NCBI RefSeq assembly: GCF_021608185.1
Contig: NZ_JAKIHN010000007.1
Coordinates: 1 to 64,000 of the forward strand
Length of the DNA: 64,000 nt
Direction: 5' to 3'
Origin: Flavobacterium anseongense
Lineage (GTDB): Bacteria > Bacteroidota > Bacteroidia > Flavobacteriales > Flavobacteriaceae
A program made the translations under genes and the position numbers. Numbering within the stretch: position 1 is the stretch's first letter; each line of letters begins with the position of its first letter. Shown here in pieces: positions 8,250-48,426 of this stretch. Below the pieces are notes generated by a model, which worked only from the letters and a program-made list of their open reading frames with translations, was not told the origin of the DNA and did no database searches.

Positions 8250-9188
8250 TTACTCATCAATGAATTTTAATTTTTCGTCCTTATCCCATAATCCCCAATA
8301 AGCGCCAACATCACCTTCGGCACCAACTTTCCATGATTCATCAAATGAGGAAAAATAGAACATATCAATATTGTCATTAGCTGACCAGAGTTGAGCATTA
8401 ATAAAATATTTCATGGCATTTTCTTTAGATGAAAAAGCGCCTCTTAGGCTACCACCTTCGCTTGGCCAACCAGTTTCTGTAATAATTACTTTTTTGCCAT
8501 TGGCGGCATGGGCTGCCTGACCAAACATGGCTTGCATGTGCGCCAAGGAATTGTCAATATCGCAGCCTTCCCAATAAGGATAACAATTAGACAGGATTAC
8601 ATCACACGCTTCAGTGATTCTAGGTCGATGGGAGAACTCATAATAGGCATCTACATAACCAACCGGAATTCCCGGCAAGGCTTCTTTTACCTGATTAATA
8701 TAATCTAATAATTCATCTTCTGTTAAATCACCACGGTACATTACCTCGTTACCAACAGCAGCTATGTCTACACATCCTTCTTTTGCTAAGGCAATAAGAC
8801 CTTCAATTTCTGCATCATTCATTGTCTTATCATTACCTAACCATGCACCAACTAAGGTTTTAAGCCCATTTTGATGTGCGATTCGAGGAATATGTTCATT
8901 CCCTTCCACACAAGAAAAAGAACGAATCCATTTGGTATATGGCTTTATGATTTGAATCCTTCTGTTTACTTGTTCTTCAGAAATAATATCACCTGGTTTT
9001 TGTCCATCTTCATACATACTAAAACACAGTCCATGCATCCCTTTTTCAAGCGTTTTTAGCCATAATTTTTCTAGTTTTTCTGTTGATGTAGCACTAAAAT
9101 CAACACCATCATAATGGTTATAGTTCCCACTATATTGAGTATAATTTGTCTCATTTATGGAAGATTGATGGTCTTTTCTATATGACAT
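8250..9188 (-). CDS. Cytoplasmic GH17 family glycosidase
   Basis: This 312-residue protein is a single GH17 TIM barrel without signal peptide or lipobox, so it should work in the cytoplasm. The acid/base is Glu148 in AAVGNEV and the nucleophile Glu238 lies in the GH17 signature ITETGWPSEGG. GH17 enzymes act on beta-1,3-glucans as hydrolases or transglycosylases; the exact mode cannot be read from sequence. It closely resembles the GH17 domain fused to the MFS transporter just upstream (shared stretches such as KPGD, ISEEQ, GYVDAY, FYFSSFDE). It starts 17 bases after that gene, so the pair looks like a tandem duplication in which one copy stayed fused. Likely substrates are imported laminari-oligosaccharides. 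Confidence 0.88.
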   Translation of the reverse strand: MSYRKDHQSSINETNYTQYSGNYNHYDGVDFSATSTEKLEKLWLKTLEKGMHGLCFSMYEDGQKPGDIISEEQVNRRIQIIKPYTKWIRSFSCVEGNEHIPRIAHQNGLKTLVGAWLGNDKTMNDAEIEGLIALAKEGCVDIAAVGNEVMYRGDLTEDELLDYINQVKEALPGIPVGYVDAYYEFSHRPRITEACDVILSNCYPYWEGCDIDNSLAHMQAMFGQAAHAANGKKVIITETGWPSEGGSLRGAFSSKENAMKYFINAQLWSANDNIDMFYFSSFDESWKVGAEGDVGAYWGLWDKDEKLKFIDE

Positions 9189-12965: not shown

Positions 12966-15900
12966 TTATTTTATTATTGAAACTATGATTTGACTAATAG
13001 TGTTTTTCCTTCCAAAAACCAGTTTTGAAGTAGTTTCATCTAAGCTCAAATTTTCAAAAAAGCTTGATTGATTATTGTTGTAAACAACTTCTAAACTTTT
13101 ATTATCTGCTAGTTTATATACGATTGGAATTTGGCAATACGTAAAACACAATGAATTTGGCTCTAACTGAATTTGGGCTTCTTTATTTTCTTTTGTGATA
13201 TAATTAAATGTTTTGGGAGATTGCAAAAACTCGTTTTTTCTCAACAATCGAGGATTAAAAATGATTTTCCCGTCTTTAACAAAGACACCAACTTCACCTA
13301 TTCGACTTAATATATCTTCTTTAACCTGACCTGTCATTCCGGGTTGTTGCGCTCCTTTTCCTGCTGGAGTATGAGAATACGGATCGGTTGGGAAAGCACC
13401 GTATAATTCAGGCGATTTGTGCACGCCAATTCCGGCATTTATTTCATAATAGTGGTCTAAAAGTTTTCCAATGGTTACGTCATCTTCTTTTGTATTTATG
13501 GCTAGTAGACAATTTTCCTGAACGGCCAGCAACAATTTAGAAACCATGTGCCAATAAATAGAACCTAAACCTTCATAACCGTAGAATGTTCCTGAACGCC
13601 CTGTAAATGCTTTATGATTAAAAACTTCCTCATACATATCTAATAATAAGGCAGTATCTTTTTCAATTAATGTTTTGTATTTTACTTGATTTAAATTTGA
13701 CAAGGCTCTTTTTAAAACATTGGCATTATTAAAATTTCCATTAAAATGATAGTTACCTAAAACATCTTTTTCTACGATTTGAGTATTTCCGTCTTTAATT
13801 AATTGGATAACCAATTCTGATTTTTTAACTTTTTCAGATGATATATTGTTTTTTTTATCAAATCGAGGTAACTCTTTGTTAGGGTATAAAATATAACTGT
13901 ATTGATCTTCTCTGAATAAAGCGCTGCTTTTTAATCCGTCGAGTACTTTTAATGCTTCTTTTGGTGATAACATTCCGGAACTTAACACAGCAACTTGTCC
14001 TTCTAACATTTCCGGAAGATAGGAGATAGCTATTTCTTTTTCATTTTTAACAGTCATTAGGTTGTAGGCATGATACATGGCATCATCTCTTTTATTTGCT
14101 GTTATGGTGTGCGCTAAAAATTCTTTAAGGACTTCAAAAAACGCTAAAAGGTCGTTTTTAGAGATGGCTTTTTTAGCACCTTTAAATCCGTCTTTGTAAA
14201 TAGATAATCGGTATATACTTCCAGCATTTCCTAGTCCATCAAGTACTGTTTTTCTATCCTTATCGGATATTTTATCAGACAGTAAATGTTTGTTATTAAC
14301 AAGAGTTGTAACAACAGCATTGAAAAAATTAGCCAATTCTTCTGACAAATCAATTTTGTCAACAGTAGATTTTGCAATCATTTTTTCATAAAAAAGTATA
14401 AATCGGTTCAGGTAACACAGAGTCACCATCGAAACACCATTTCCAACTAAAGCGTTGTTGGCGTCATTCCATTCCGGACGCTGGGTGTTCATCCAAATAC
14501 CACCTTCGGGAATAAAGTTGGCTACTTTTGCTAAAAGAGTGGCTAATAATTTTTCAGTTAGGTTTACTTTATAAATAGTGGAATTACCATCCATTATAAG
14601 TGTCCCATCAGAGCCCATTTCGCTTCTCAATTGCCTAATTTTTCCATCTAATTTGTAATCAAAATCGATAGTGTCTTTTGGATTTAAGAGTGTATCCTGA
14701 TAGCTTTTTATTTTGTAAGGCACATTGGCATAAACAAAAATATTTTGTGTAAATCGTTTTTCTAAAAGGTTCGGATAGTGATTTTCTATAAATTCTAAAA
14801 ACTTGAGTAAATAAATAATTTGGTGATCGCCCCAATAACCAATGTAAGACCACGGATCGTGTTCTTCGATAGCTTCCCAATCAAAACCATCTTTGGTAAC
14901 ACGGTATGGATTGTATCCATCAAAGGTTGTAGCGTTCAGAAATTTATGAATCATACTTTCTATAAACTCCGGAAAAGAATGTGCCAATGCTTCCCAATTC
15001 TGGAAAATATCTCTCCAGTTTCCTTCATAATCAAGTATTTTAGAACCATCTATTTCGCTTCGGGTATTAATCGAAAATTTATTCCAAGGTCGGCTTGGGT
15101 CACCATGACGGCGACTGAATTTAAGTGGAAGGTATTCAAAACAAAGACGTTTAAAATTGCTGTCTTCAATAGTATCCGCAGTATTTTTTAACTCTTCTAA
15201 AGTAAAATTGTAGGGCAGAGCGGAAAGTATGTTTTGATTAGTGTTGAAAACATTTTTGTTGGCTTTCTCTAAATATGTTATAAAATCTTGTTTTTCAATA
15301 GTATATCCATCGTCAAATATACCGCCTCGCATGATGTTAAAGAGTGTATTTGAAAAATGTCTGGTATTAGTTAGTTCATCCTGAGTTATTTGCAACCCAT
15401 CAGATGCTGCGGTTAATGCGATTAGTTTTTTGGTGCCTAATTCTACATCTTGCTGAATAACATCTGCCAAATCTTTTTCGGTAGTGATAAAAATAAACTC
15501 TGCTAAGGCTGTTACTTTGGAAATGGTCTGATTTACATCGGCTACAAAAAACCAATTTTTTTCTGATTTTGCTTCTAATGTAATAGTAGAACTAACAAAA
15601 TAAGCACCTCTTTCCGCTTTGATATCTACTTCTTTTTTTACGCGATTTCCTTTTCTAAAATTATCAAGTTGTAGAGATGAGATTAAATGCGTTGGAGATT
15701 CTAATCCGAATGACCAGACAATATTGGTTTTTAAGCATTCACTTGGTTCTGCTTTATCAACAATGATGGCACTTAATGAGTAAATTCCCATTCCCGAATT
15801 AGTTAATAATTCACTCTTTTTATACGCATCGACAAGATTACTTTTACTGCTTTGTAAATCTTCGTTTACACCATTTGGCAAAATGTTTTGCATCCCGTCG

Positions 15901-16391
15901 AGCAGTGTAATGTCAAGATCATTTTGAGAGTTATTTATTAAGGTTGCCTTTTTTATAAACCCAAATTTATCACTGGAATTCCATTGATATCGGTAGGTTA
16001 AATTTAAATCCTCATTAATTTCTTCAAAAATTATTTTATTGCCATAATTGTTTTTATACAGATTTTGGGTCGTTTTGTAAACACCCATTTGTCTGATTGA
16101 GAAAGGTTCCCAGATTAGAGTTTTTGAATCTGAATGAATTTGAAAAATGCTCTTGCTGCCTGTAACTTCAGCATTTTCAGTTAGTTTATCGTCTGTGTAA
16201 TAAGGGAACAATGCATTGTTACTGTCTTTTCTACCGGCTGTTAAACCACCGTTACTGGAAATAAACATCCAATGATTGGAATCGCTAACGATGCTCATAA
16301 AAAAAGGTCGCATCACATCACTGTTTGCGATTTTATAGAACTTTTCGTTTTCGAGAGTTACCCATTCCACTTTACTATTCTTTACTTCCAT
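12966..16391 (-). CDS. Probable beta-1,3-oligoglucan phosphorylase (GH149-like)
   Basis: The 1141-residue product has no signal peptide and should be cytoplasmic. Its length, a beta-sandwich-like N terminus (NGGLTAGRKDSNNALFPYYT) and an (alpha/alpha)6-type core with GNWRDIFQNWEAL, DPWSYIGYWGDHQ and MNTQRPEWNDANNAL resemble the GH94/GH149 phosphorylases. The large size and the beta-glucan neighbours favour GH149, whose characterised members split beta-1,3-gluco-oligosaccharides with phosphate to give glucose 1-phosphate. I cannot verify the family without a profile search, and GH94 or GH161 remain possible. The gene is followed four bases later by the GH17 lipoprotein and preceded 39 bases earlier by GH30. 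Phosphorolysis would save ATP, because part of the glucose arrives already phosphorylated. Confidence 0.75.
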   Translation of the reverse strand: MEVKNSKVEWVTLENEKFYKIANSDVMRPFFMSIVSDSNHWMFISSNGGLTAGRKDSNNALFPYYTDDKLTENAEVTGSKSIFQIHSDSKTLIWEPFSIRQMGVYKTTQNLYKNNYGNKIIFEEINEDLNLTYRYQWNSSDKFGFIKKATLINNSQNDLDITLLDGMQNILPNGVNEDLQSSKSNLVDAYKKSELLTNSGMGIYSLSAIIVDKAEPSECLKTNIVWSFGLESPTHLISSLQLDNFRKGNRVKKEVDIKAERGAYFVSSTITLEAKSEKNWFFVADVNQTISKVTALAEFIFITTEKDLADVIQQDVELGTKKLIALTAASDGLQITQDELTNTRHFSNTLFNIMRGGIFDDGYTIEKQDFITYLEKANKNVFNTNQNILSALPYNFTLEELKNTADTIEDSNFKRLCFEYLPLKFSRRHGDPSRPWNKFSINTRSEIDGSKILDYEGNWRDIFQNWEALAHSFPEFIESMIHKFLNATTFDGYNPYRVTKDGFDWEAIEEHDPWSYIGYWGDHQIIYLLKFLEFIENHYPNLLEKRFTQNIFVYANVPYKIKSYQDTLLNPKDTIDFDYKLDGKIRQLRSEMGSDGTLIMDGNSTIYKVNLTEKLLATLLAKVANFIPEGGIWMNTQRPEWNDANNALVGNGVSMVTLCYLNRFILFYEKMIAKSTVDKIDLSEELANFFNAVVTTLVNNKHLLSDKISDKDRKTVLDGLGNAGSIYRLSIYKDGFKGAKKAISKNDLLAFFEVLKEFLAHTITANKRDDAMYHAYNLMTVKNEKEIAISYLPEMLEGQVAVLSSGMLSPKEALKVLDGLKSSALFREDQYSYILYPNKELPRFDKKNNISSEKVKKSELVIQLIKDGNTQIVEKDVLGNYHFNGNFNNANVLKRALSNLNQVKYKTLIEKDTALLLDMYEEVFNHKAFTGRSGTFYGYEGLGSIYWHMVSKLLLAVQENCLLAINTKEDDVTIGKLLDHYYEINAGIGVHKSPELYGAFPTDPYSHTPAGKGAQQPGMTGQVKEDILSRIGEVGVFVKDGKIIFNPRLLRKNEFLQSPKTFNYITKENKEAQIQLEPNSLCFTYCQIPIVYKLADNKSLEVVYNNNQSSFFENLSLDETTSKLVFGRKNTISQIIVSIIK

Positions 16392-16430: not shown

Positions 16431-17945
16431 CTATTTGTTACTTATTAAAATAGTTTGAATTGAATGAGGTAGCGCTTTTAAATAAGCTGAATTTGATTGA
16501 AGAGTCAGGCTGTAATCCAGATTTTTATCACTTGAATTCATGACAACAATGGCCAGGCTTCCATCTGTATTTTTAAAAGCTGTTGTCAATAAGGCATTGC
16601 TACTGGAAACACTGGCAATTTTTTTGGCTCCGGGACGAATAAATTTTGAAAAATGTCCTATGTAATAATACGAGTTGGTAAACGTAATTTCATCGGTTTT
16701 GGTATTGCCATGAACAGGTGAAAAACAAAGATTTGCCACGTGATTTGGGCCGCCGGTTTCATCAAGAAGGATATTCCAGTCTGTCCAAGCCACGACACCA
16801 TTATTAAAATCGTTTATCATTGATTTTCCGTAGCGCTCGGCTAATTTTGGATCTTCATTTTTTATTCTTTCCAGATTATAACTTTCATTACAACCTTCAG
16901 TAAAAATTAAATTTTTATCGGGGTAAGTTTCTTTAACATACTTAACAGCCTCATACATTGGCACACCGTCTTTCCAATCTTCATACCAATGAAAGCCAAC
17001 ACCCCAGGCATATTTTGCTGCTTCAGGATCGTTTAAAATCACATTGGCCCGCTGAAATAATAAGTCTCTGTTATGATCCCAAACAATATTTTTTATACGG
17101 CCCAAACCTTCTTTTTGCAATGTTGGTCCCAAATAGTTTTTTAAAAAGTCGCGCTCTTCTTCAGCAGTATAAATACAAGATTCCCATCGTTGTACTGCTA
17201 ATGGTTCATTTTGGATGGTTAAACCCCAAACAGGAATGCCTTCGGCTTCATAGGATTTGATAAATTTCACATAATAATTTGCCCAGGATTGATAAAATTC
17301 AGGAAGCAACTTTCCTCCATTGAGCATATTCTTGTTTGATTTCATAAAGGCGGGTGGACTCCACGGACTGGCGTACAACGTTAGTTTTCCTCCGGCTGCT
17401 TCAATAGCTTTTTTAATGAACGGGATGCGGTATTTTTTATCGTGTTCGATAGAAAAGGTAGTAAGTGCGTTATCACCTTCATCAATATAGGTGTAACTTG
17501 ATGTTGAAAAATCACAGCTATGTATAGAAGTCCTGGCTAATGAATATCCTATTCCTTTTTCTTGATTATAGTATGCTTCTAAAAATATTTTTTGATTTTT
17601 TTTTGATAGTTTATGGAACGTTTCAGCTGCGGCATCGGTTAATGCTCCTCCAATACCTAAAAAGGTTTGAAATTCCTTACCTGAATCAACAATTATAGAA
17701 GCATCCGTTTCAAGAGGTTGTTTGAGCTCGTAAAACTTTAATGAATCGGTAACGGTTAATTTTAAATTAGAATGATGTGCGGTTGTATAAACAGCTGTTT
17801 TTATTGATTTCAAGTTTAAGACTTTACTAACATTGTACTCTTGTTTGGTATGACAGTTCCCTTTTATTGGCTTGCAACAAATGAACAATAACAACCCAAT
17901 GAACTGAATTGTTTTTAAATTAAAATATTGGTTCATTAATTGCAT
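16431..17945 (-). CDS. GH30 glucosidase/glucanase, exported
   Basis: The protein is a GH30 clan-A barrel. It shows YASPWSPPAFMKSN, acid/base Glu247 in LTIQNEP, nucleophile Glu350 in LIFTEGCNES, and a C-terminal beta-sandwich ending in VMNSSDKNLDYS. GH30 enzymes in laminarin loci commonly act on beta-1,6-linked glucose, that is, side branches of laminarin; this substrate is inferred from context. The N terminus is hydrophobic (IQFIGLLLFICC) and could be a lipoprotein signal at Cys23 or Cys24, though it lacks a strong positive n-region. A second start codon lies three codons in and gives nearly the same protein. A strong inverted repeat (17975-18012) sits just upstream, between this gene and the GH16 lipoprotein gene. 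Confidence 0.88.
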   Translation of the reverse strand: MQLMNQYFNLKTIQFIGLLLFICCKPIKGNCHTKQEYNVSKVLNLKSIKTAVYTTAHHSNLKLTVTDSLKFYELKQPLETDASIIVDSGKEFQTFLGIGGALTDAAAETFHKLSKKNQKIFLEAYYNQEKGIGYSLARTSIHSCDFSTSSYTYIDEGDNALTTFSIEHDKKYRIPFIKKAIEAAGGKLTLYASPWSPPAFMKSNKNMLNGGKLLPEFYQSWANYYVKFIKSYEAEGIPVWGLTIQNEPLAVQRWESCIYTAEEERDFLKNYLGPTLQKEGLGRIKNIVWDHNRDLLFQRANVILNDPEAAKYAWGVGFHWYEDWKDGVPMYEAVKYVKETYPDKNLIFTEGCNESYNLERIKNEDPKLAERYGKSMINDFNNGVVAWTDWNILLDETGGPNHVANLCFSPVHGNTKTDEITFTNSYYYIGHFSKFIRPGAKKIASVSSSNALLTTAFKNTDGSLAIVVMNSSDKNLDYSLTLQSNSAYLKALPHSIQTILISNK

Positions 17946-18026: not shown

Positions 18027-18842
18027 TTATTGATAAACTCTTACGTAATCAACATACATGGTTTGAGGAAAACTTGTTTCGCCATTAGGAGAGCCTACAT
18101 AATCTCCTCCCACAGCAAGATTAAGGATGATATAAAAAGGTTTGTCAAATACCCACTCGCCAGTAACTTTATCAGGAGTAATTTGATTGTATAAAACATC
18201 ATCTACATAGTAGTTTATGTAATTTTTTCCCCACTCAATACCAAAAATGTGAAAATCAGTATCAAAACGGTCGTTTATCAAATCATAACTTTTTGAAATT
18301 GAAGTTGCACCTGAATACCCTGGGCCATGAACTGCACCACCAATTTTAGTTGGCTGTTGTCCTCTGTACTCCATGATGTCAATTTCACCACATTGAGGCC
18401 AACCAACCGTATCGGAGTCGGCACCTAGTAGCCAAAATGCTGGCCAAAGACCTTGTCCCCATGGCATTTTAATTCTGGCTTCAAATCGACCATATTTTTG
18501 TTCAAATCGACCTTTAGATAATATTCTGGCAGAAGTATATGGTGAACCTAAATACAATTCGCTCTTGGCGGTTATTTGAAGCATCCCGTCCAATACTTTA
18601 ATATTTTCAGGTCTATCAGTATAGTATTCTAATTCGTTGTTGCCCCATCCATTATTTCCAGTTCCGATGTTATATCCCCAAATAGTACTATTCGGTGCTC
18701 CGTTGACATCAAACTCATCCTGCATAACGAGCTTAGTCATGGTAATAACAGTTTGTTTTTCATCAGTAGAGCAACTAAGTAACATAAGTAATGCTGCCAG
18801 AGTGAAAACACTTTTCTTTATTATACTATTTCTTTTAATCAT
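18027..18842 (-). CDS. GH16 lipoprotein, endo-beta-1,3-glucanase
   Basis: This 271-residue enzyme is a minimal GH16 laminarinase. A lipoprotein signal ends in LMLLSC (Cys24), so it should be membrane-anchored, probably on the cell surface as is usual in polysaccharide loci. The catalytic motif CGEIDIMEYRG gives nucleophile Glu153, Asp155 and acid/base Glu158. The aromatic stretches GQGLWPAFWLLG and the end YVDYVRVYQ are typical of bacterial laminarinases. It lies 36 bases after the surface lipoprotein gene and 81 bases before GH30. It should make the first endo-cuts in laminarin-type glucan. Confidence 0.92.
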   Translation of the reverse strand: MIKRNSIIKKSVFTLAALLMLLSCSTDEKQTVITMTKLVMQDEFDVNGAPNSTIWGYNIGTGNNGWGNNELEYYTDRPENIKVLDGMLQITAKSELYLGSPYTSARILSKGRFEQKYGRFEARIKMPWGQGLWPAFWLLGADSDTVGWPQCGEIDIMEYRGQQPTKIGGAVHGPGYSGATSISKSYDLINDRFDTDFHIFGIEWGKNYINYYVDDVLYNQITPDKVTGEWVFDKPFYIILNLAVGGDYVGSPNGETSFPQTMYVDYVRVYQ

Positions 18843-18878: not shown

Positions 18879-20285
18879 TTAATTGTTAAGATAGATGTTG
18901 TCTACATAGATTACAGAATTATCTCCACCCTCTAAAATTAATTGCGCAAGATGTGATCTGCTGGTTAAACCTGGCATTGCTGAGAAAGGAATGTTGATAG
19001 GTATCCAACTTTGTGAAACCAATGTTGGAGCAGTAAATGTTGTAGAGTGTCTTGTATCATCGCCTCCACCAAAAGCTCCATTTGCTCCAAAATCTACTAA
19101 AATGACTCTAAGCTGTCTTCCCGGAGCAATAGGACCCGGAATAAAAACATCTAAATGAACATTAGTCATTGCGGTTGCATTGATTGTTGGACTGCTAAAT
19201 TCGATACCTACAAAATTAAAAATGGTATAGTTTAAAATATTATCCCCAAGAACCGAAAAATCATTTGAAACAGTTGTTTGCCATGGTTGCCAATAACCAT
19301 TATAATAATTTACCGGGACATTTGTATAAGCATCTGAAAAAATTGAAATTACGTTTGCCGGATTTAATGTTGGTGTTGGTGCGTGAACAAAAGTACCTAC
19401 ACAATTAATTGTTAAACTACCAGTGGTTGGTAAGCCGTTAAATGTTGCTGTGATTACAGCAGTACCAGCGCTCAGCGAAGTCACTTCACCTAAAGCATCT
19501 ACAGTTGCAACGCTTGGATTTGAAGATGTAAATTGCAAATAAGCAGGGCTAATAGATACTGATTGATTTATTCCATTTGATAAATTAAATGTTGCAATTA
19601 CTCCATCAACTTTAGATTTAACACCTACAAAAGTTGTTTCAGATTTATCGATACCATTTAAAATCGATGCTTGTCCATGAGCGATTGTGCCTAATTTTTC
19701 ATACTTTACTTCATCAATCCAAAAGGTATATCCTTGTCCGTTTTCCGGTCCTTCGGCATACCAAAACATCCCTTTTTCACTTTTTAATTTTGAAGCATCC
19801 GGAATCGGAATAACATATTTTTTCCAATACGTAGCCAAAGGAACATTTGACATCGTAACCACGTATTTATTTTCATTAAAATCATTTCCGAAACCAAGCT
19901 CATTGATAGTAGCTGATTGAGAACCTTTTGCCCAAAAAGTTAGTGCATCATAGCCGGACAAATCTCGTCCACCGCCATCTATAAATACACCACCTACATA
20001 TGCGCCTTCAGGATCTCCAACATTTGGAACATCAAAACGCATAGAAGCCGTACCTTTATATTTAACCTCTGTATCAACATTAAAACCGGTAAGTAATGTA
20101 TTGCCAAAGGCACCATAGTCTAGACCGGCACTGAATGCATCTATGAATACCTCTGCAGTTTTTGGATATGTTGCTAACACCGAATCATCAGAAGGTTCTC
20201 TGTCACAACCTACAACCAAGCTGAAAATCAACCCTATAAGAAGTGTGATTTTTGAATAAATAAATTTTCTTGTTTTCATATTCAT
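18879..20285 (-). CDS. Surface lipoprotein, probable beta-glucan-binding protein
   Basis: A lipoprotein signal ends in LVVGC (Cys27). After it comes a jelly-roll-like segment of about 150 residues (FIDAFSAGLDYGAFG, DALTFWAKGSQ, YTFWIDEVKYE) that resembles carbohydrate-binding folds. A bacterial Ig-like (BIG2-type) stretch follows with SSNPSVATVDALGEV. The C-terminal 160 residues start ANVISIFSDAY and end IYVDNIYLNN. This last module recurs in the two T9SS proteins at 26653-28083 and 28226-29563. No catalytic residues are evident. Its place between the glycosidase-barrel gene and the GH16 lipoprotein gene suggests a surface glycan-binding protein, taking the position that SusD/SusE-type proteins hold in other loci. 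Function is inferred from architecture and context. Confidence 0.75.
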   Translation of the reverse strand: MNMKTRKFIYSKITLLIGLIFSLVVGCDREPSDDSVLATYPKTAEVFIDAFSAGLDYGAFGNTLLTGFNVDTEVKYKGTASMRFDVPNVGDPEGAYVGGVFIDGGGRDLSGYDALTFWAKGSQSATINELGFGNDFNENKYVVTMSNVPLATYWKKYVIPIPDASKLKSEKGMFWYAEGPENGQGYTFWIDEVKYEKLGTIAHGQASILNGIDKSETTFVGVKSKVDGVIATFNLSNGINQSVSISPAYLQFTSSNPSVATVDALGEVTSLSAGTAVITATFNGLPTTGSLTINCVGTFVHAPTPTLNPANVISIFSDAYTNVPVNYYNGYWQPWQTTVSNDFSVLGDNILNYTIFNFVGIEFSSPTINATAMTNVHLDVFIPGPIAPGRQLRVILVDFGANGAFGGGDDTRHSTTFTAPTLVSQSWIPINIPFSAMPGLTSRSHLAQLILEGGDNSVIYVDNIYLNN

Positions 20286-20303: not shown

Positions 20304-23300
20304 TTATTTTCCTATGTTAATATGCACATATGTTCTAATTTCCCATTCACTACCGTTAGGGAATCCAACCGGACTCACGATAGGTTCTGTTATAAATTCT
20401 CCGGAGGTTTGATTTGGACTGTAACGAGGAGAATATTGGTCTAAAGATCTCCATGTTCCCATTATTCCAATTTTTGTGTTTGGTAAAACGAACCAATTTG
20501 GTTTTCCTACAGATGTTGATAAATCTAACATTAGTTGGAGTGGGTATGTTAAATTAAAGTCACGATGGTAGTCAAATGGTCCCCAATCGTTAAACTTGAT
20601 TGAACTTGTTAGTTTAATTTTTCTGTAAATTAATCTGATATCACCACCAGCTCTATTTATTGTTCTTTCAGAATCCCCATTAGCTTGTCCATTTCCAAAA
20701 TAAAAATTTCCGATAATGCCAAGATCCGGAGTTAGTTTTGAAACTATTCTGGTATTTGATTCCCATAAATTTTGAGCAGGCGCAGATTTAGCAAATGCAA
20801 AAGCAGTACGATTGCTGAGGAATCCAATTGCAGCATCTTGCGTTGTAGGTAAATTTCTGTATACAAAACCTGTGCTTACCGCAAATTTTGCATCTTCAAC
20901 CATATCGTTATTCCATTCATACATCCATGTTGCAGGAGTAGGGTCGTAGGTTAATAATAATTCTCCTCCAACAGTTTCTCTATTCGCTCTAACCACAAAT
21001 GGGTCATCTTGAACGTTACGCAATCTTCCGGGTGCATTTACATCATTTGGCATAGCTTCAACTAGTGGTTTTTGCCATAAAAAATTTGGTGCGATTTGAA
21101 AGTTTGAATTAACATTATAAGTAAATCCGGTTAAGAAGTTCATTTGATTTCCGCTTCCGGTATCTTTCAATCTCCAACCTGTGAAAGTTTGAACATTATC
21201 GGCACCACCATTTGCAACCAATCCCATAATTGCACCTTGTGTGTAAACATTAAACCTTCCTTTTGAGAATGTTAATTTAGCCTTCCCTCCCCAATTGTCG
21301 CCATTATTAATTTTGTCGTTATAAACTGTGTAGTTTCCTGGTGTAGTTTCTTCAGCATATTGAAAAACTCTGCCGTTTAATGGTTGTCCACCCCAAATAC
21401 CTCCGAACTCTATACCTAATGAACCAACTTTAGTTTTAAGATGTAAAGTCGCTCTTCTGGTTTTTGGTAACGGAATAGCTATAGATGTTAGCGCTGCACC
21501 AGCATTTGCAACATCTTCATGATAAACTGCAGTGGCATCAAAGGCACCAATTTTTTTACTGTACTTTAACAATAATGCAGGGTTTGCTCCCCACCAAAGT
21601 TGCGGTCCGAAAGCTGCTTTAAGTCCATTTAAACTTCTTTTACCATCTATCTCTAACCCGAGAGTTTCTCCGTTGTATATGTCTAAATTTGGACCGTAAT
21701 TAGCTTCAGGATATAAGGCAAAAAAATCACCTTCATATCCCCAATGATAATGACCGGTTCTGTAAAATCCTCTTAAATCAAAATCTTTGTCATTCCAAGA
21801 GTAAGAAGCATTGTAAATTTGTACTCTGTTGTTATCATTAATTTCAACAGGTCCATCTGGGGTGTTTACTGTTTGTGTGCGCCCTCTATTTTCATAAAAT
21901 ATTTCATTTATTGGATTTTCTGCAACACGACCCAAAATATTCACATTCACATTAGCTTTCATATTTGGAGCAGGATTTCCTTCGACACCAATAAAATAAG
22001 ATTGCATATGATCGAAGCCTAGCTTATTTGGATAGTTATTTGTTTCTGGATCATCATTTTTTGGAGTTGTAATTAAACTTCCTCCGGTATTAAAAGTGGT
22101 GAATTCAGCTCTTAAATTACTGATTTTCAATATTTCATTATCATTACCTCCTAAAGCAGCTTTATCGCCTCTTGCTCTTAAAACAGCATCCATTAAATTT
22201 ACATTATTGAAAGCTCTGTTTATAGTTTCATTTGTTGTTCCTTGTTCATAAGGATTAACTCTATGAACTTCTTTTAGGGCATAATATGCTGCGCGAGGAT
22301 ATAAATCATATAAGCCTCTTGAATTTGTTGGACCTTTTGCACAAATCCCAAACCATTCCTCGTTCATATTATTTTGGCCTTTAATAAAATCATTTAAATA
22401 GCCACCATTAGACCATGAAGCATTATCATCATGTATTTCTAAATTTTTTGTTTGACCATATTTCCACCACCCATCGCTAAATTGAAAAGTAAAACCTCCA
22501 ATTGAATTGCCAACTTTACCCATACCTGCTGCATTTTCATATATCTCTTTCCAATTACCAACCATGTAGTAAGCTTGTGATTTTTGATCTTCAGCATTTT
22601 CTAATACATTAAAAGCATCAGCTCCGAATTCAGTAAATAATATTGGTTTATCTATTTTTTCTTTAACTTTTTGGAAGGCATCTCCGAAAGACACTCCGCG
22701 ATACATATTAACCCCCAAAATATCAATGTCTTTACATTCTTCAGCGATAATATCTAAGAATAGTAAATCTCCGTTACAAATTGCAATAGGATGCGATTTG
22801 TCGATTTTTTTCATTTCAACTACTGCATCATTAAACAGCTTGTACATATCTTTAGATCTTATAGTAGATTTTCTATCTTCCATAGGAATGTCTTCTGTTT
22901 CAGCGCCATCCCAAAATAAACCATAGTTATTTTCATTCCCTAAAAGAAATAATAAAACACCGGGAGTATTTTTATACTCTTCAACCATTTGTTTAGTTTC
23001 TTTTAGTAGTAATTCTCGAGTTAACGGGTTTGAATATTCTGTATTAGGAACCCAGGTTCCGTTTAAGGTTAAACCATATCTACCAAAAGAGTGATTTAAC
23101 ATAGTGCGAATTCCGTATTTTTCATATATATATTGAATCCATTTTGGCTGAATCCCTGTATATTGTCTCACAGCATTTACCCCCATGTTTTTTAATAATG
23201 ACATCTCGGTATCGAGAGCAGCTTTAATGACATCATCAGATTGTTTCCACAAACTGTAATTGTAGTTGGTACCAATCGGAAAATAATCCCAGTTCATACC

Positions 23301-23435
23301 GTTGATTATAAAATCTTTACCGTTGACAACTAGTTTTGTTCCTTGAGCATTTTTTTCAAGTGAAACCTTATCAGCTTGAGCATGAATAGTTGATGAATAA
23401 CTCCAAAGAATTAGAAGTAAAATAATTTTTCTCAT
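20304..23435 (-). CDS. Glycosidase-like TIM barrel fused to an outer-membrane beta-barrel-like region
   Basis: Residues 1-20 are a signal peptide (HAQ end). Residues about 25-400 look like a clan GH-A barrel related to the GH2/GH5 group: VVNGKDFIINGMNWD, Glu168 in LFLLGNENNYG as candidate acid/base, and Glu269 in ILFTEFGAD as candidate nucleophile. The remaining 600 or so residues hold no enzyme motif. They are made of alternating polar and aromatic strands (FNVYTQGAIMGL, NFQIAPNFLW, LGIIGNFYFGNG, IKLTSSIKFNDW) ending in YVHINIGK, as expected of an outer-membrane barrel. No SusC/SusD is encoded in this locus, so the barrel may serve as glucan channel or anchor. Family assignment below the clan level is not possible by eye. 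It is the first gene downstream of the regulator, with a 280-base upstream region. Confidence 0.75.
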   Translation of the reverse strand: MRKIILLLILWSYSSTIHAQADKVSLEKNAQGTKLVVNGKDFIINGMNWDYFPIGTNYNYSLWKQSDDVIKAALDTEMSLLKNMGVNAVRQYTGIQPKWIQYIYEKYGIRTMLNHSFGRYGLTLNGTWVPNTEYSNPLTRELLLKETKQMVEEYKNTPGVLLFLLGNENNYGLFWDGAETEDIPMEDRKSTIRSKDMYKLFNDAVVEMKKIDKSHPIAICNGDLLFLDIIAEECKDIDILGVNMYRGVSFGDAFQKVKEKIDKPILFTEFGADAFNVLENAEDQKSQAYYMVGNWKEIYENAAGMGKVGNSIGGFTFQFSDGWWKYGQTKNLEIHDDNASWSNGGYLNDFIKGQNNMNEEWFGICAKGPTNSRGLYDLYPRAAYYALKEVHRVNPYEQGTTNETINRAFNNVNLMDAVLRARGDKAALGGNDNEILKISNLRAEFTTFNTGGSLITTPKNDDPETNNYPNKLGFDHMQSYFIGVEGNPAPNMKANVNVNILGRVAENPINEIFYENRGRTQTVNTPDGPVEINDNNRVQIYNASYSWNDKDFDLRGFYRTGHYHWGYEGDFFALYPEANYGPNLDIYNGETLGLEIDGKRSLNGLKAAFGPQLWWGANPALLLKYSKKIGAFDATAVYHEDVANAGAALTSIAIPLPKTRRATLHLKTKVGSLGIEFGGIWGGQPLNGRVFQYAEETTPGNYTVYNDKINNGDNWGGKAKLTFSKGRFNVYTQGAIMGLVANGGADNVQTFTGWRLKDTGSGNQMNFLTGFTYNVNSNFQIAPNFLWQKPLVEAMPNDVNAPGRLRNVQDDPFVVRANRETVGGELLLTYDPTPATWMYEWNNDMVEDAKFAVSTGFVYRNLPTTQDAAIGFLSNRTAFAFAKSAPAQNLWESNTRIVSKLTPDLGIIGNFYFGNGQANGDSERTINRAGGDIRLIYRKIKLTSSIKFNDWGPFDYHRDFNLTYPLQLMLDLSTSVGKPNWFVLPNTKIGIMGTWRSLDQYSPRYSPNQTSGEFITEPIVSPVGFPNGSEWEIRTYVHINIGK

Positions 23436-23715: not shown

Positions 23716-26544
23716 CTATATATTTAAAATGTATTCAACTAAGCCTTGTTCGTGTGGTAAATCCATTTTTTTACGTAAACGATATCGTTTTATTTCTACA
23801 CTTCGAACAGAAATATTAAGTAATGGAGCAATTTCTTTGGAAGACAAATTCAATCGTAAATAAGCACAAAGTCTCAAATCATTGGGTGTAAGCAACGAAT
23901 GTGCCTGCTTAACTTTTTTCAAAAAGTCTTTATCTGCACTATCGAAAGCATCTCTAAATAAATTCCATGAATCCTCTTCGTTAATGTTTTGAGTAATCGT
24001 AGAAATTACTGATTTTAAGCTACGATTACCTTCTTCGGAAGTTTTATTTAAATCCTCTTTAATTAAAGCTAATAGTTTGTTTTTTTCTATCAAATTCATA
24101 GTAGAGACTGCTAACTCTTTATTCTTACTATCAACATCTTTAGTCAATTGTTCATTTTTCAGCATCATTAATTGTCTAGAGTTTTCGAGCTCATTTAATT
24201 CCAGTAAAAGATTATTTTCTTCTATTAATTTTTCTCTTTGTCTTTGATAATAAATTTTATACTTTTTGTTTATAAAATAAGCCAAATAGAGAATCAATAA
24301 AAAATAAACAAATAAAGCTAAATTAGTTGCGTACCAAGGTTTTAATATAGTAAATGAATAAACTGCAACATTTTCAGGTAAAGAATTAGCTATTTTAGCT
24401 TTTACCTTAAAAGTGTATGTGCCTGGAGATAAATTTTTAAAATTCACAGATGATTTTGAATCCCATTCGCTCCATTCATATTGAAGCCCCTCTAATAAAT
24501 ATTGGTATTCTGTATTGATATATTTATTATATTCCGGAACAGTATAACTAATAGTTATGTTATTTTCATCGTGCTTAAATTCTCCCTGATCAGTGGTAGA
24601 AGCATTTCTGACATTTTCGTTAATTTTATTACTGCTTACAGCAGTTATGGAAACGCTGTAGTTTTTAAAACTTAAATCATCAATATTTAATATATAATAA
24701 CCATCAGTTGTACCAATTAAATATTCCGAATCCGATATTTGGTTAATGTTTTCGTATCCTAACATTGAATTGTTAAGAGATGTTGGGATTGGAATTACGT
24801 TCTTTTTAAGTTGCTTACTTAATTTACTTGAAGAAAAATAAATGATGTAATTTTTAGTGAATACCCATATTTTATTTGACTTATCAAGAATCAATTTTCC
24901 GGATGTATATTCGTCTTTGTCAAAAATGGCTGATAAAACTTTATCTTTTGTAAAAGTCTTATTTTTATTTAACTTATAAATTCCATCCTTGTTAGCATAC
25001 AAAATGGAATTATTAAAATTGATTAAACTTGCATTTTTCCCTTTTTTTGGATTAGTATAAGTAAATACTTTCTCAGCTTTTTCAAACATATTGTTTGTTT
25101 GAAATCTGAAAACCCCTTTATATTCGTGACTTATATAGAATTCTAAATCTGTTGTCACACCAAAATTTTTAGCCGAATAATCAAATCCTTTAATCTTATT
25201 TTTATAGACCCATTGATTATTCTCTTTTTTCAAAACAGAAATCCCAAAATAATTTCCCTGAAACAATATATCTTTTCTACCTGGCATGGGTTCGAATTTC
25301 CATGTTCCGGATTGGTAGAAAATATTATTCGAACTATCTTCATTAATTATAAAAGTACCTGAGTCATGTCCACAAAAAAGTGTTCCGTCATGTTGAAATA
25401 ATGACCAGACTTGACCTTTAGTACCTGATACAAATTTGAATTGCCCTTCTCTTTGAAATGGTTTGTAAAACAATCCTTGATTTGTCCCTATGTATAATTT
25501 GTCTTTGTAAACAATAGATGCATAGATAGTTCCCAGAATTCCGGTATTGTCAGAAAAACTTTTTATTGGTGTTTGAAGATTGACACAATTTATTCCATTG
25601 TCGGAACCAATCCATAAATTTTTATCAATATCTTCAAATAGAGAAAGCGCTGTATTATTGCTTAATCCTATATTTTGGGTTATATGAAATCTTAAATTCA
25701 TTTCTCTTGAAAGTATAAAAATCCCATTAGAAATAGTTCCTAATACGAATCCACCATCTGAAAGTTTTTGGCTGCTATATACACTACTCGATTGTAAATC
25801 AGAATCAATAGGAGTATTCTTTTTTGTAATTAAATTATTAGACAACTCGTAGAAACCATTACTCTGTGTTAAAATGAGTATGCCGTTATTTGATTTAAAA
25901 ATACCTTTAACTTTATTTTGTAGTATAATCTGATTATTTGAAAGTAGTTTACTTGACCCATTTTCAATCTCAAACAATCCTTCTGAAAAGGTTTGATAAT
26001 ACAATCCGTTTTCGGTTTTGAATGCTTTTAGAATATTACTTTTTGGAGTAATTATTGAAAATTTATTCAGTTTGGTATCATAAACATATATTCTGTTTAA
26101 TGATTGAAATAGAACCCATTGATCAAATTGAAGTATGCCCCAAAAATGTTCATCATCAAGAATTTTATTTTTAATACTATTGCTCAACGAATAATATTTT
26201 AACAGCCCATTCTTTTGACGTTTCCAATAGCCAAATTCCATGTAACAACCGGTATAAATTTTATCATCTATTACCTTAACTGACCTAATTATTGTTTCAT
26301 TAGGAGACTGATAAAGTGTCCAATTGGAACCATTAAATTCTAACAATCCTTCATTATTCGCAAAAAACATATAATGATTAGCATCTTGAGCTATCATCCA
26401 GTTTTGATTACCGGCAGCATAATTTGATGGTGAATACTTAACAATTGGCGGAAGCTCTTGCGCAAGAAGAGGAATGCTTAAAAATAGAGTTATCGCTATT
26501 CTAGAAAAATATCTTTTGATGTATGTTGATTTTTGAGTTGTCAT
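23716..26544 (-). CDS. Membrane-tethered one-component regulator (propeller, Y_Y_Y, LuxR-type HTH)
   Basis: The 942-residue protein begins with a signal peptide (ITLFLSIPLLAQ). A long repeat region with propeller-type motifs follows (LSLFEDIDKNLWIGSDNGINCV, in part), then a Y_Y_Y-type domain (YQYLLEGLQYEWSEWD, LSPGTYTFKVKA). A single membrane helix lies near residues 737-757 (ALFVYFLLILYLAYF), followed by a coiled coil. A C-terminal LuxR-like helix-turn-helix (about 883-940: LTPNDLRLCAYL, SSKEIAPLLNIS, SVEIKRYRLRKK) ends the protein. It has no histidine kinase or receiver domain. The periplasmic part would sense a glucan fragment and the cytoplasmic end would bind DNA. It sits inside the beta-glucan locus on the same strand, so it is the likely local activator. 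It lacks a strong recognisable promoter. Confidence 0.88.
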   Translation of the reverse strand: MTTQKSTYIKRYFSRIAITLFLSIPLLAQELPPIVKYSPSNYAAGNQNWMIAQDANHYMFFANNEGLLEFNGSNWTLYQSPNETIIRSVKVIDDKIYTGCYMEFGYWKRQKNGLLKYYSLSNSIKNKILDDEHFWGILQFDQWVLFQSLNRIYVYDTKLNKFSIITPKSNILKAFKTENGLYYQTFSEGLFEIENGSSKLLSNNQIILQNKVKGIFKSNNGILILTQSNGFYELSNNLITKKNTPIDSDLQSSSVYSSQKLSDGGFVLGTISNGIFILSREMNLRFHITQNIGLSNNTALSLFEDIDKNLWIGSDNGINCVNLQTPIKSFSDNTGILGTIYASIVYKDKLYIGTNQGLFYKPFQREGQFKFVSGTKGQVWSLFQHDGTLFCGHDSGTFIINEDSSNNIFYQSGTWKFEPMPGRKDILFQGNYFGISVLKKENNQWVYKNKIKGFDYSAKNFGVTTDLEFYISHEYKGVFRFQTNNMFEKAEKVFTYTNPKKGKNASLINFNNSILYANKDGIYKLNKNKTFTKDKVLSAIFDKDEYTSGKLILDKSNKIWVFTKNYIIYFSSSKLSKQLKKNVIPIPTSLNNSMLGYENINQISDSEYLIGTTDGYYILNIDDLSFKNYSVSITAVSSNKINENVRNASTTDQGEFKHDENNITISYTVPEYNKYINTEYQYLLEGLQYEWSEWDSKSSVNFKNLSPGTYTFKVKAKIANSLPENVAVYSFTILKPWYATNLALFVYFLLILYLAYFINKKYKIYYQRQREKLIEENNLLLELNELENSRQLMMLKNEQLTKDVDSKNKELAVSTMNLIEKNKLLALIKEDLNKTSEEGNRSLKSVISTITQNINEEDSWNLFRDAFDSADKDFLKKVKQAHSLLTPNDLRLCAYLRLNLSSKEIAPLLNISVRSVEIKRYRLRKKMDLPHEQGLVEYILNI

Positions 26545-26652: not shown

Positions 26653-28083
26653 TTATTCCTTGATAAATCTTGTTGAAGAAACGTTTCCATTAATAGAAGT
26701 TTTTACAACATAAACCCCAACTTGCAAACTAGCAATATCAAGAGTTACTAACCCGCTTTTAGGGGTTTGTGATATCACTTCTTGTCCCAAAAGGTTGAAA
26801 ACTGAGACTTTTTCAATAGTCATTGCTGATTCGATGTTTAAAACATTGGTAGCAGGATTTGGATATAATCTAACATTTGAAGCTTCAAAATCTTCAGTAC
26901 CTAAAGTAGTGTTTTTGTGTAAATACAGGTTGTCATAATATACTGTTCCTAAATCAGAAGTTATAACGAATTGAGCAAAATCAGAAACGCTAGGACAAGC
27001 ATTTCCTGGTGGTGTATTAATACATTGGAAAGCAGTAAGAGGTAAATCTATTGAAATCCAAGTTCCTTCTGAACCACTTGTTAAAATGTTGGAATTATTT
27101 GCAGAGTATTGTAAAGCATTAGTTTCTCCTCCAGTACCATTCCAGTTAGAGAATTTGAAATTAAAACTTTTATCTTGAGTTGGTGTAGCTGTCCAAATAT
27201 CCATATGAAAGCGAGTAAACCCAGTGGCATCGAATCTTCCTGCTAAAAAGGCTACTCCTTCACATCCTAAACCAGTAATTTTATTGGTATTATTTCCTTC
27301 AATTTGAACTAAAGTTGTATTAGCACCACACCAAGAAGTGTTGAAGGTGTTATCGTTGCCCGTGTAACCAATAGTTGTTACAGGTGTATAGCCAACAAGA
27401 GCATCACAAAATAATGATTTTACATCAGCAGCAGGTCTGTTTGGAGGAGTTGGTGCTGCAGTAGTAGGAGCTGGTACTACAGGAGGAGTTCCAAGCGGAC
27501 CTTTAATATTATCAACGTAAAAAGTTCTTGCAGGTGTCGGACAAACTGTTGGAGTAAAGAATGCAGTTCTTCCTGTTTCCCAATAGGTATGAATTACAAA
27601 ACCAGCGTAAACCCCATTTGCCGGCGCTGCTTGTCCGTCTAATGAAGTGTCAAATGTAAATGAAATTGTTTGCCAAGTGCTGCCACCAGTATGCGTTGCA
27701 GAAGCTGCGGATATAGCTGGACCACCGGTTCCGCCAGTAACTTTTACTAAGAAAGTGATAGGAGTGTCAGAAAAAACATCCATTGTCATTGTTTTGGTAG
27801 TTGTTAAATTGACAAGAGATGTTAGCGTTAAATTTACTCCTTGCCAAGGTTCGCATGCAGGGTTTCCAACGATTTTAAGAACTTTTGTTGTATTTGTACC
27901 AGTTCCATCTTCAACAACAGGTGTAGGCACGACGTTAGCGCCTATATCGCCAAAAGTAGATCCTACACTTCCAGTTTCTCCTGGTTCAAACCCTAATAAT
28001 TGGTCTTGTGAATATCCAAATGATGTCAAAAATAATGTTAGTGCTACTAAAATTATTTTCGTATTTAAAATAGTTTTATTCAT
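26653..28083 (-). CDS. T9SS-secreted multi-domain protein, probable glycan binding
   Basis: The signal peptide ends near GYSQ (residue 25). Residues about 28-195 form a jelly-roll-like domain (LLGFEPGETG, KTMTMDVFSDTP, WQTISFTFD, RTFYVDNIKG). A proline-rich linker leads to the module shared with two neighbours (about 218-390: ADVKSLFCDALV, TRFHMDIWTATP, TVYYDNLYLHKN). The final 80 residues are a type A T9SS sorting domain (LYPNPATNVL, FNLLGQEV, LQVGVYVV). No catalytic motif is visible. Its C-terminal sorting domain is nearly identical to that of the next protein (28226-29563), so the two are recent paralogues. Two proteins of this shape beside laminarinases suggest secreted beta-glucan binding proteins. 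It has its own terminator. Confidence 0.75.
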   Translation of the reverse strand: MNKTILNTKIILVALTLFLTSFGYSQDQLLGFEPGETGSVGSTFGDIGANVVPTPVVEDGTGTNTTKVLKIVGNPACEPWQGVNLTLTSLVNLTTTKTMTMDVFSDTPITFLVKVTGGTGGPAISAASATHTGGSTWQTISFTFDTSLDGQAAPANGVYAGFVIHTYWETGRTAFFTPTVCPTPARTFYVDNIKGPLGTPPVVPAPTTAAPTPPNRPAADVKSLFCDALVGYTPVTTIGYTGNDNTFNTSWCGANTTLVQIEGNNTNKITGLGCEGVAFLAGRFDATGFTRFHMDIWTATPTQDKSFNFKFSNWNGTGGETNALQYSANNSNILTSGSEGTWISIDLPLTAFQCINTPPGNACPSVSDFAQFVITSDLGTVYYDNLYLHKNTTLGTEDFEASNVRLYPNPATNVLNIESAMTIEKVSVFNLLGQEVISQTPKSGLVTLDIASLQVGVYVVKTSINGNVSSTRFIKE

Positions 28084-28225: not shown

Positions 28226-29563
28226 TTATTCTTTTATAAATCTTGTTGAAGATACATTTCCGTTGATAGAGGTTTTTACAACATAAAGTCCAACTTGTAA
28301 ACTAGCAACATCAAGAGTTATTAGCTCAGCGTTTGGAGATTGTGAAATAACTTCTTGCCCCAAAAGATTATATACTGATACTTTTTCAATAACTGAAACT
28401 GATTCAATGGTCACAACATTGCTAGCTGGATTTGGATATAATTTAATAGCGTTTGCAGCAAATTCATTAGTACTCAAAGGAGCTCTCCAAATGTAGAGAT
28501 TATCATACCATATGACATTATTTAAGTTACTTGTAACTCCAAATTCATGCATAATTGGATTACTTACTAAATTTGAAAGTTGGGAAGGAGAAAAAGCTCT
28601 ATCGAAAGAATACCATGTACCAGGCACTGGAACAGGAGAAAGACCATTAATGTCAATAGGAATTTCTACTTCAGCCGGACCGCCACCTGTATTAGGAACT
28701 ATTTTTAAGTTAAACACCTTTCCAATTAAATTTGTTCCAGTTGCAATAAAGAAATCAACATGTATATTAGTAAAACCACTAACATTCTGCGTAGCTGAAG
28801 GAAAAGTAATTCCTTGACAAGCATTACCTTTGTATGCTAAGACATTGTTGGCAGGACCACCTGCTGTAGTAGCTTGTACTGCATTGGCGCCACACCATCC
28901 CGCATCTAAATTTATAGGCGAAATACTAGTGTAAGCATCACTATAAATAGAAACTACATCAGAAGCCGCTCTAGCTGGTGGTACAGGAGAATTAACAGTT
29001 GGAGGCGAAATACATGGAGCGCAAGAACCACCACAATCAATTCCAGTTTCAGTACCATCCTGAATACCGTTTGCACAAGTATTTACAATTTGAGTAACAG
29101 ATACATTATCAATAAATACAAAACCTAAAGCTGCACCCATGTCAAAAATGACTCTGTCATTAACAGCGTCTCCGTAGTTAATGGTGAATTGATATGTAAA
29201 TGTTTGGGCGGTTGCAGTTAAAACTGGTGTTGCAGTTAAAGCTGCATACGGAGCATTATCTTGACCAAGGCCAACGACCATTGTACGTGTACCAGTAGTA
29301 GCATCAGTGAATGCATCAAATTTTAATTCATACGTTAGACCACTTGTTAAAGTAACTACTTGGCTCAAGTTAACGTCATATGGATTACCTACAGATGTTA
29401 CTTGAGCTTGGTTGACCCAATTCAATCCGCCTAAGTCAACAACATTTGCTGCATTTCCGTACCAAGGTGCGGCCGTACCGGTTTGAAAATCTCCATTAGT
29501 TACAATTTGTGAATGAGCAAGTGTACAGAAAATTAATAATAGAAATAAAGTAATTTTTTTCAT
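28226..29563 (-). CDS. T9SS-secreted protein with CBM4/9-like domain, probable glycan binding
   Basis: After the signal peptide (LAHSQ) residues about 20-158 resemble a CBM4/9-type domain (IVTNGDFQTGTAAPWYG, LTYELKFDAF, LGFVFIDNVSV). A short cysteine-rich spacer follows (CANGIQDGTETGIDCGG, then CAPC), a motif seen between modules of flavobacterial surface proteins. Residues about 200-360 are the shared module (SDVVSIYSDAY, FTNIHVDFFIA, VIWYDNLYIWR). A type A T9SS sorting domain ends the protein. It is the most upstream gene of the beta-glucan region. Binding of laminarin is inferred from the binding-type fold and the neighbours; no enzyme residues are seen. Confidence 0.75.
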   Translation of the reverse strand: MKKITLFLLLIFCTLAHSQIVTNGDFQTGTAAPWYGNAANVVDLGGLNWVNQAQVTSVGNPYDVNLSQVVTLTSGLTYELKFDAFTDATTGTRTMVVGLGQDNAPYAALTATPVLTATAQTFTYQFTINYGDAVNDRVIFDMGAALGFVFIDNVSVTQIVNTCANGIQDGTETGIDCGGSCAPCISPPTVNSPVPPARAASDVVSIYSDAYTSISPINLDAGWCGANAVQATTAGGPANNVLAYKGNACQGITFPSATQNVSGFTNIHVDFFIATGTNLIGKVFNLKIVPNTGGGPAEVEIPIDINGLSPVPVPGTWYSFDRAFSPSQLSNLVSNPIMHEFGVTSNLNNVIWYDNLYIWRAPLSTNEFAANAIKLYPNPASNVVTIESVSVIEKVSVYNLLGQEVISQSPNAELITLDVASLQVGLYVVKTSINGNVSSTRFIKE

Positions 29564-48407: not shown

Positions 48408-48426
48408 TTAAATAATTTATTTTAAA

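Follow-up and report, generated by a model that had tools for sequence, protein, structure and literature searches.

Can a glycan-cutting enzyme and an outer-membrane pore be parts of one polypeptide, and would their joining couple cutting with uptake? The question is raised by a gene in a 64,000-nucleotide stretch of Flavobacterium anseongense DNA (contig NZ_JAKIHN010000007.1, positions 1 to 64,000; hereafter the window), for which an earlier note had proposed a glycosidase-like barrel followed by about 600 residues of outer-membrane strands. The gene (20304–23435, minus strand, as are all coordinates in this paragraph and the third) is a single open frame of 1043 amino acids with an ATG start, present as one copy in the genome (3.07 Mb, 47 contigs), and its nearest named relatives are from Flavobacterium. 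Based on the reading frame, Pfam, alignments and AlphaFold2, we describe it as a fusion of a probable glycosidase with a predicted outer-membrane barrel. The chain starts with a signal-peptide-like segment, residues 1 to ~22 (23370–23435), recognised by eye and modelled as a helix at residues 2–16. A TIM-barrel domain identified by Pfam, the model and the alignments follows at residues ~21–435 (22131–23375), including a helical segment at 402–429. The remainder, residues 436–1043 (20307–22130), forms the predicted barrel of approximately 26 strands, assigned from the model, structure matches and conservation.

The fusion is a real family across many relatives, including a human gut species. 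A contig scan, in which one place may yield several stretches, returned at least 589 related stretches; the best 80 loci, a sample biased towards close relatives, encode proteins 66–80% identical to the window fusion, and all of them span residues 29–1040. Across 395 sampled Bacteroidota genomes, the barrel part is matched in 35, with 33 of the 36 matches in frames of 1028–1084 amino acids and the remaining three in genes that are cut or broken. The glycoside hydrolase (GH) part reaches E ≤ 1e-3 in 81 genomes: 43 have matches at E ≤ 1e-146, and those in the remaining 38 are at 4e-23 or weaker. A plasmid collection holds two further members, one in Bacteroides finegoldii, where the public product name is ‘glycoside hydrolase family 2 TIM barrel-domain containing protein’. 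The gene row there runs fusion, a lipoprotein resembling (by eye) a carbohydrate-binding module (CBM) protein, GH16, fimbrillin, a hypothetical protein and GH3, and none of the 18 annotated features of this 27-kb stretch is named SusC/D. The PLSDB ‘plasmid’ of B. finegoldii (L188, NZ_OY725931.1) also carries rpsA and a valine--tRNA ligase gene and is probably a piece of chromosome. A record titled as a Bifidobacterium breve metagenome-assembled genome (MAG; L030) contains a copy 76% identical to the window’s that groups with Flavobacterium, and is probably a mislabelled bin. Phage records gave no fusion match.

The N-terminal domain is a probable GH158/GH2-like clan GH-A glycosidase, with glucan cutting as its predicted activity. 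The TIM barrel extends to residue ~430, against the 400 residues given in the note, and both glutamates that the note singled out are invariant: Glu168 in the motif GNEN (codon 22932–22934) and Glu269 in TEFG (codon 22629–22631), which we take, from general knowledge of the clan, to be the acid/base and the nucleophile, respectively. The invariance holds in 68 aligned full-length proteins (the window’s and 67 of the best 80 loci; the other 13 are near copies, uncertain starts or cut genes) and in 48 aligned GH domains, comprising the window’s, 28 of the 56 fused and 19 of the 22 unfused rows of the tree described below. Pfam Glyco_hydro_2_C (PF02836) matches residues 33–283 with 39.9 bits (cut-off 21) and is found at E ≤ 1e-3 in 37 of the 48 domains. 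Among the PDB matches listed by Foldseek, GH158 is nearest (E 1.4e-13); a profile search gives the GH158 enzyme BuGH158 (6pal) at E 1.4e-7, with no one stretch significant alone, and 9oro at 2.5e-4. By VIA, 9oro (Z 27.9, 2.8 Å over 282 residues) is tied with the GH2 structure 3hn3 (Z 27.1, 2.8 Å over 284). The sugar-binding and immunoglobulin-like domains that precede a GH2 barrel are absent by Pfam and in the model, and the TIM barrel directly follows the signal-peptide-like start. The GH158 beta-1,3-glucanases (BuGH158 and the 9oro series) are the best PDB matches by profile and by Foldseek and align in the regions of the catalytic glutamates, but identity is low (13–20%), the solved enzymes have no barrel, and the fused domain carries a very conserved, poorly modelled segment at residues 321–360.

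The full chain, predicted by AlphaFold2 with 67 relatives, contains the TIM barrel followed by long strands, with a mean predicted local distance difference test score (pLDDT) of 74.7 and a predicted template modelling score (pTM) of 0.53. Residues 400–1043 modelled alone reach pLDDT 76.0 and pTM 0.72, with 26 long strands by our own count between residues 436 and 1042; the count omits four short strands (521–525, 528–532, 870–872 and 878–880), and 24–28 are possible. A TIM barrel plus barrel strands is the architecture that had been expected; a soluble beta-sandwich or propeller C terminus, which would have spoken against the idea, is not seen in the models. The predicted strands have the features of an outer-membrane barrel, being antiparallel, amphipathic and even in number, with short turns, long loops and a conserved last strand. 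The joins alternate in length, with a median of 19 residues after odd and 2 after even strands (p 1.7e-4); we took the joins after odd strands as outer loops, which presumes an N terminus in the periplasm. Mean strand amphipathicity exceeds that of all 2000 shuffles, and 18 of the 26 single strands lie above their own shuffled mean, the first two strands not being among them. The ‘aromatic-rich end’ of the note corresponds to the last strand, which is strongly conserved with the consensus EWEIRTYxHINIGK.

Structure comparison assigns the C-terminal part to the class of outer-membrane barrels without specifying a kind. All 50 of the PDB matches listed by Foldseek are outer-membrane barrels (338 at E ≤ 0.001), a match at class level only, because the TM-scores to the query are low (0.27–0.36) and the root mean square deviations high (12–20 Å). 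BtuB-type receptors, Cir, PirA, ZnuD and OprC lead the listed matches, and MOMP, AlgE and LptD stand lower. In VIA, AlgE (Z 14.2, 4.6 Å over 254 residues) and Occ porins are tied on top, followed by ushers, SusC 5t3r_D (Z 12.9, 4.8 Å over 353) and the Mtr barrel 6r2q_B (Z 11.8, 5.6 Å over 397). No Pfam or NCBIfam family covers the barrel region of the window protein, and 68 barrels scanned singly against Pfam gave a best E of only 0.034. Neither a plug domain nor the SusC family TIGR04056 was found in the fusion protein by Pfam and NCBIfam, and it is not among the 25 TIGR04056 matches of the genome. The C-terminal sorting domain of the type IX secretion system (T9SS) is absent from the fusion by the same libraries and present in two neighbours.

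The order of the domains, enzyme first and barrel last, is that of type V secretion, and the polymer is located outside, so that the barrel might serve as an autotransporter-like device that takes the GH domain to the cell surface. We consider this improbable: an autotransporter Pfam domain or a C-terminal translocator of about 12 strands was not found, and approximately 26 strands are predicted instead. Their even number would place both ends of the barrel, and hence the N-terminal enzyme, in the periplasm, and the unfused relatives of the enzyme look periplasmic, having a signal peptide or being lipoproteins in which a probable export-type motif occurs in 0 of 10.

If the barrel inserts into the outer membrane as predicted, it could be a pore or simply a large anchor, and its pattern of conservation bears on the choice. 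In 22 of 26 strands, conservation is higher on the polar than on the hydrophobic side (0.776 versus 0.647, p 7e-4). Among 40 divergent barrels, mean identity to the window is highest in outer loops (0.63), followed by strands (0.59) and turns (0.52); these means differ little overall, and loops L3 (561–589), L4 (611–619), L6 (685–689) and L12 (951–963) are 0.87–0.94 identical. Conserved polar faces and loops are expected of a binding channel and less of a pure anchor; they support a channel without proving it, because hydrophobic residues replace one another readily in barrels of all kinds, and the window family alone was measured. The anchor reading holds that the barrel only tethers or scaffolds the glycosidase, and perhaps neighbouring lipoproteins, with fragments entering via SusC/D or general porins. 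It fits less well with the conserved polar faces and outer loops, and a lipid tether would cost the cell less than 600 residues do.

The genes around the fusion indicate what such a channel might carry. Along the minus strand, the window encodes a Reg_prop/Y_Y_Y/LuxR-type regulator (23716–26544), the fusion and, starting 18 bases after it, a lipoprotein (18879–20285) with Big_2 and C-terminal domains and, in some relatives, a CBM30/CBM11-like domain, hereafter the CBM lipoprotein. It is followed by a GH16 lipoprotein (18027–18842), a GH30 protein resembling endo-1,6-beta-glucanases (16431–17945; below the cut-off for the endo-1,6 model), a GH149 beta-1,3-glucan phosphorylase (12966–16391; 1785.7 bits, cut-off 1150), a GH17 protein with a lipoprotein-like start (11687–12961), a major facilitator superfamily (MFS) transporter of type MFS_2 fused to GH17 (9206–11620), a further GH17 (8250–9188) and a second GH16 (6435–8135), so that both GH16 genes of the genome lie within the window. 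In several other loci, the MFS protein is an unfused chain of 476 amino acids, as opposed to the window’s MFS–GH17 chimera. These enzymes (GH16, GH30, GH149, GH17 and MFS–GH17) point to beta-1,3/1,6-glucan as the probable substrate, and the laminarin-type context proposed earlier thus finds support in both gene neighbourhood and structure prediction. A different use of the same parts would be export or remodelling, in which the protein would act on a beta-glucan made by the cell itself, trimming or releasing it on its way out, like AlgE-type exporters with their periplasmic enzymes. AlgE is indeed among the best VIA matches, where it shares the top with Occ porins, but the window neighbours scanned against Pfam and NCBIfam are degradative or regulatory and include no glycan synthase, which makes export very improbable.

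Neighbours were counted in the 80 contig-scan loci and in 62 loci from the genome search (40 fused and 22 unfused); the matches in G408, G412, G419 and G425 were left out, as were the genes of G204, G235, G305 and G332, which are cut or broken. By best BLAST match, the CBM lipoprotein gene is next after the fusion in 119 of 120 loci (80/80 and 39/40), the sole exception being L166. GH16 lies in the region of 72/80 and 36/40 fused loci and GH149 in that of 58/80 and 32/40, counts to be read with the many regions that end at contig ends. Among 27 CBM lipoproteins aligned (the window’s and 26 of the 77 listed), CBM30 is matched in 7, CBM_11 in 4 and Big_2 in 22 at E ≤ 0.1; the window’s own copy matches Big_2-type models only.

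The lipoproteins differ in the residues that follow the lipid-bearing cysteine. A polar–acid–acid motif at positions +2 to +8, present in the window’s CBM-type lipoprotein and first GH16, is carried by 66 of 119 CBM-type and 56 of 108 GH16 lipoproteins, by 2 of 74 GH17 and 2 of 47 GH30 lipoproteins, and by none of the ten unfused-GH lipoproteins mentioned above. PMC5080379 describes a Bacteroidota lipoprotein export signal of a similar kind, SDDFE in F. johnsoniae. By this comparison, the CBM and GH16 lipoproteins are probably surface-exposed, and the probable place of GH17, GH30 and the GH domain of the fusion is the periplasm. Fused genes that satisfied a loose lipobox rule (22/120) have a cysteine inside an ordinary signal peptide, and these counts were not used.

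Evidence on the role of the barrel also comes from 22 loci with an unfused form of the glycosidase, 51–64% identical to the fused domain and encoded in frames of 433–507 amino acids. GH149 is directly next in 19 of them and kept in the region in 21, and the CBM lipoprotein gene follows the enzyme in 0 of 22, against 119 of 120 fused loci (Fisher p 6e-25, with relatives that are not independent). Homology to the fusion stops at residues 414–431 in 18 of the 22, just before strand 1, and reaches 441–485 in the other four; most unfused proteins end within the helical segment 402–429. In G119, G415 and the second G418 locus, the match extends 30–50 residues into the barrel beyond a stop, and these remnants point to barrel loss; the unfused G415 gene has an internal TAG. 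No barrel match was found in 20 of the 23 genomes that carry an unfused enzyme; two more, G119 and G415, keep nothing but the remnant, and in G418 a remnant coexists with a full fusion. A CBM protein is matched somewhere in six of the 23; its N-terminal part (residues 18–351) is found in G418 only, and the other five matches cover at most residues 176–467, mostly the C-terminal domain. An outer-membrane module consisting of the barrel on the GH, the CBM lipoprotein and often GH16 is therefore present or absent jointly inside a beta-glucan operon. The joint absence of the barrel and the probable surface glucan binder speaks against a mere anchor; in favour of one, several lineages have probably lost the barrel, and 10 of the 22 unfused GH proteins score as lipoproteins under the loose lipobox rule, so tethering alone could help.

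A tree was built from every fifth of the best 80 loci (16 rows), the 40 fused and 22 unfused genome-search loci and 4 outgroup rows. A single origin of the unfused form is ruled out, as the label needs at least seven changes (starred branches), which may be gains or losses, on a tree whose root rests on very long outgroup branches; the case for a fused ancestor depends on the barrel remnants and on the position of some fused rows close to the base. G418, with a full fusion and an unfused copy bearing a short barrel remnant (L129, L185), is a natural before-and-after pair. Much more distant unfused relatives of the enzyme, 23–26% identical by blastp, are found in glucan-type loci with GH17, GH149 and MFS (L124, L126) or with GH16 (L125, L127).

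The window operon contains no SusC/SusD by Pfam, NCBIfam and a genome-wide SusC scan. The genome has five SusC-type genes over the cut-off and four SusD, with the window gene at 54391–57618 kept outside the SusC counts. One SusC/D pair lies in the other cluster of the window (45–50 kb); a second neighbours an alpha-amylase-type gene and GH65, a third a PF10091 gene and GH3, and a fourth Porin_10 and a subtilase. The remaining SusC-type gene is surrounded by genes that resemble, by eye, housekeeping genes. PF10091 is a beta-1,2-glucanase family. The other window cluster (~43700–63900) has its SusC/SusD pair at 45180–50235 together with, by eye, GH28, GH105 and pectate-lyase types, and is probably directed at pectin. 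Simple replacement of SusC/D by the fusion was considered and is not supported, because 15 of the 22 unfused loci are also without both.

We slightly favour uptake of glycan through the barrel. This reading fits the conservation of polar faces and loops, the finding that unfused loci lack barrel and CBM lipoprotein together, and the SusC/D-free operon. In the full import model, the surface CBM30/11-like and Big_2 lipoprotein and the surface GH16 would capture and cut glucan, and the ~26-strand barrel would admit beta-1,3/1,6-glucan fragments. The N-terminal clan GH-A domain, periplasmic at the pore exit, would trim entering fragments, and GH17 and GH30 lipoproteins would carry on digestion in the periplasm. 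The MFS–GH17 fusion would then move short sugars across the inner membrane, and GH149 would phosphorolyse them in the cytoplasm. The fusion may in this way let bacteria import sugar chains and cut them on arrival, the pore coupling cutting to uptake as the earlier note suggested. A broader and more tentative proposal, possible but in our judgement short of likely, is a third Bacteroidota import route: a glycan channel of the outer membrane, plug-less, TonB-independent and tethered to its enzyme, in which the CBM lipoprotein would be the lid or feeder. This channel would take the place of SusC/SusD in marine, freshwater and gut beta-glucan loci and would be paired in some genomes with MFS–GH17, so that both membranes would carry enzyme–transporter chimeras.

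Several observations weigh against import through the barrel. The barrel and full-chain models are of moderate confidence, the alignments are shallow, and the full-chain model (pTM 0.53) does not fix the enzyme relative to the barrel. The top barrel matches among those listed by Foldseek are TonB-dependent transporters; loops L1, L5, L7 and L13 are variable (0.40–0.47 identity); and the unfused-GH lipoproteins are intermediate in acidity after the cysteine (mean net 1.1). The barrel is dispensable in some lineages, because the unfused form arose repeatedly and 21 of its 22 loci retain GH149. SusC or SusD occurs in the region of 15 of 120 fused loci, to which a hidden Markov model search adds a receptor-like open reading frame in L183 and a weak one in L064, and in 7 of the 22 unfused loci (Fisher p 0.048, with related loci not independent and regions of ~10 kb each way), which ties the absence of SusC/D to the fusion weakly. 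Furthermore, the SusC/D locus with PF10091 and GH3 could serve a beta-glucan. The presence of SusC or SusD in some fused loci and of other SusC/D pairs in the genome would also supply the entry route that the anchor reading calls for; with the conservation and the joint gene pattern on the other side, we hold that reading to be rather unlikely.

Compared with SusC/SusD utilisomes, the predicted system likewise combines an outer-membrane barrel, a surface glycan-binding lipoprotein, a surface GH and a regulator in one operon. Unlike them, the fusion has no plug or SusC-family match and ~26 predicted strands, it is adjoined by a CBM30/11-like Big_2 lipoprotein rather than SusD, and its enzyme is covalently joined to the barrel. 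The closest precedent for the joining is the MFS–GH17 protein of Formosa sp. Hel1_33_131 (FORMB_24740; PMC6246565), which also unites transporter and glucanase in one chain at a similar locus and is proposed to couple hydrolysis with transport; the window’s MFS–GH17 chimera resembles it. The Formosa protein is inner-membrane and helical, whereas the window’s GH/barrel fusion is predicted to be an outer-membrane barrel and carries an enzyme of another family. The same paper reports that laminarin induces polysaccharide utilization loci (PULs) of this strain and that the GH16 FORMB_m24690 is detected on laminarin only. A MAG titled Formosa sp. Hel1_33_131 (L059) has the fusion beside CBM, GH16, GH149 and GH17 genes, and from this gene order we infer that the fusion gene lies inside the laminarin-induced PUL. 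The paper also places the laminarin genes of Formosa near TonB-dependent receptors and SusD-like proteins and attributes selfish laminarin uptake to SusCD, the latter a further point for the opposing side. In Muricauda laminarin PULs (PMC13188888), GH17, GH30 and MFS are preceded by a ‘GH2’ listed together with GH16 and GH149. This ‘GH2’ is very probably a member of the fusion family; the main text treats it as a GH2 beta-glycosidase and contains neither ‘outer membrane’ nor ‘porin’. Searches of the open-access literature brought up no description of a glycosidase/outer-membrane-barrel fusion, which argues only weakly that none exists.

Accounts of polysaccharide uptake in Bacteroidota usually centre on SusC/SusD, and a locus finder may demand the pair, by a rule quoted in PMC11573768. 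If the barrel imports glucan, a laminarin-type glucan route would have been overlooked and filed as ‘GH2’, and it would allow a direct test of whether joining pore and enzyme improves uptake, as both forms, fused and unfused, exist in nature and, in one case (G418), in the same genome. More than a single gene would be concerned, because the whole outer-membrane module comes and goes inside the beta-glucan operon. Beyond the regulator, two T9SS-tailed proteins are encoded at 26653–28083 and 28226–29563 on the minus strand, the second with CBM_4_9 over the cut-off, and both are probably secreted glycan binders.

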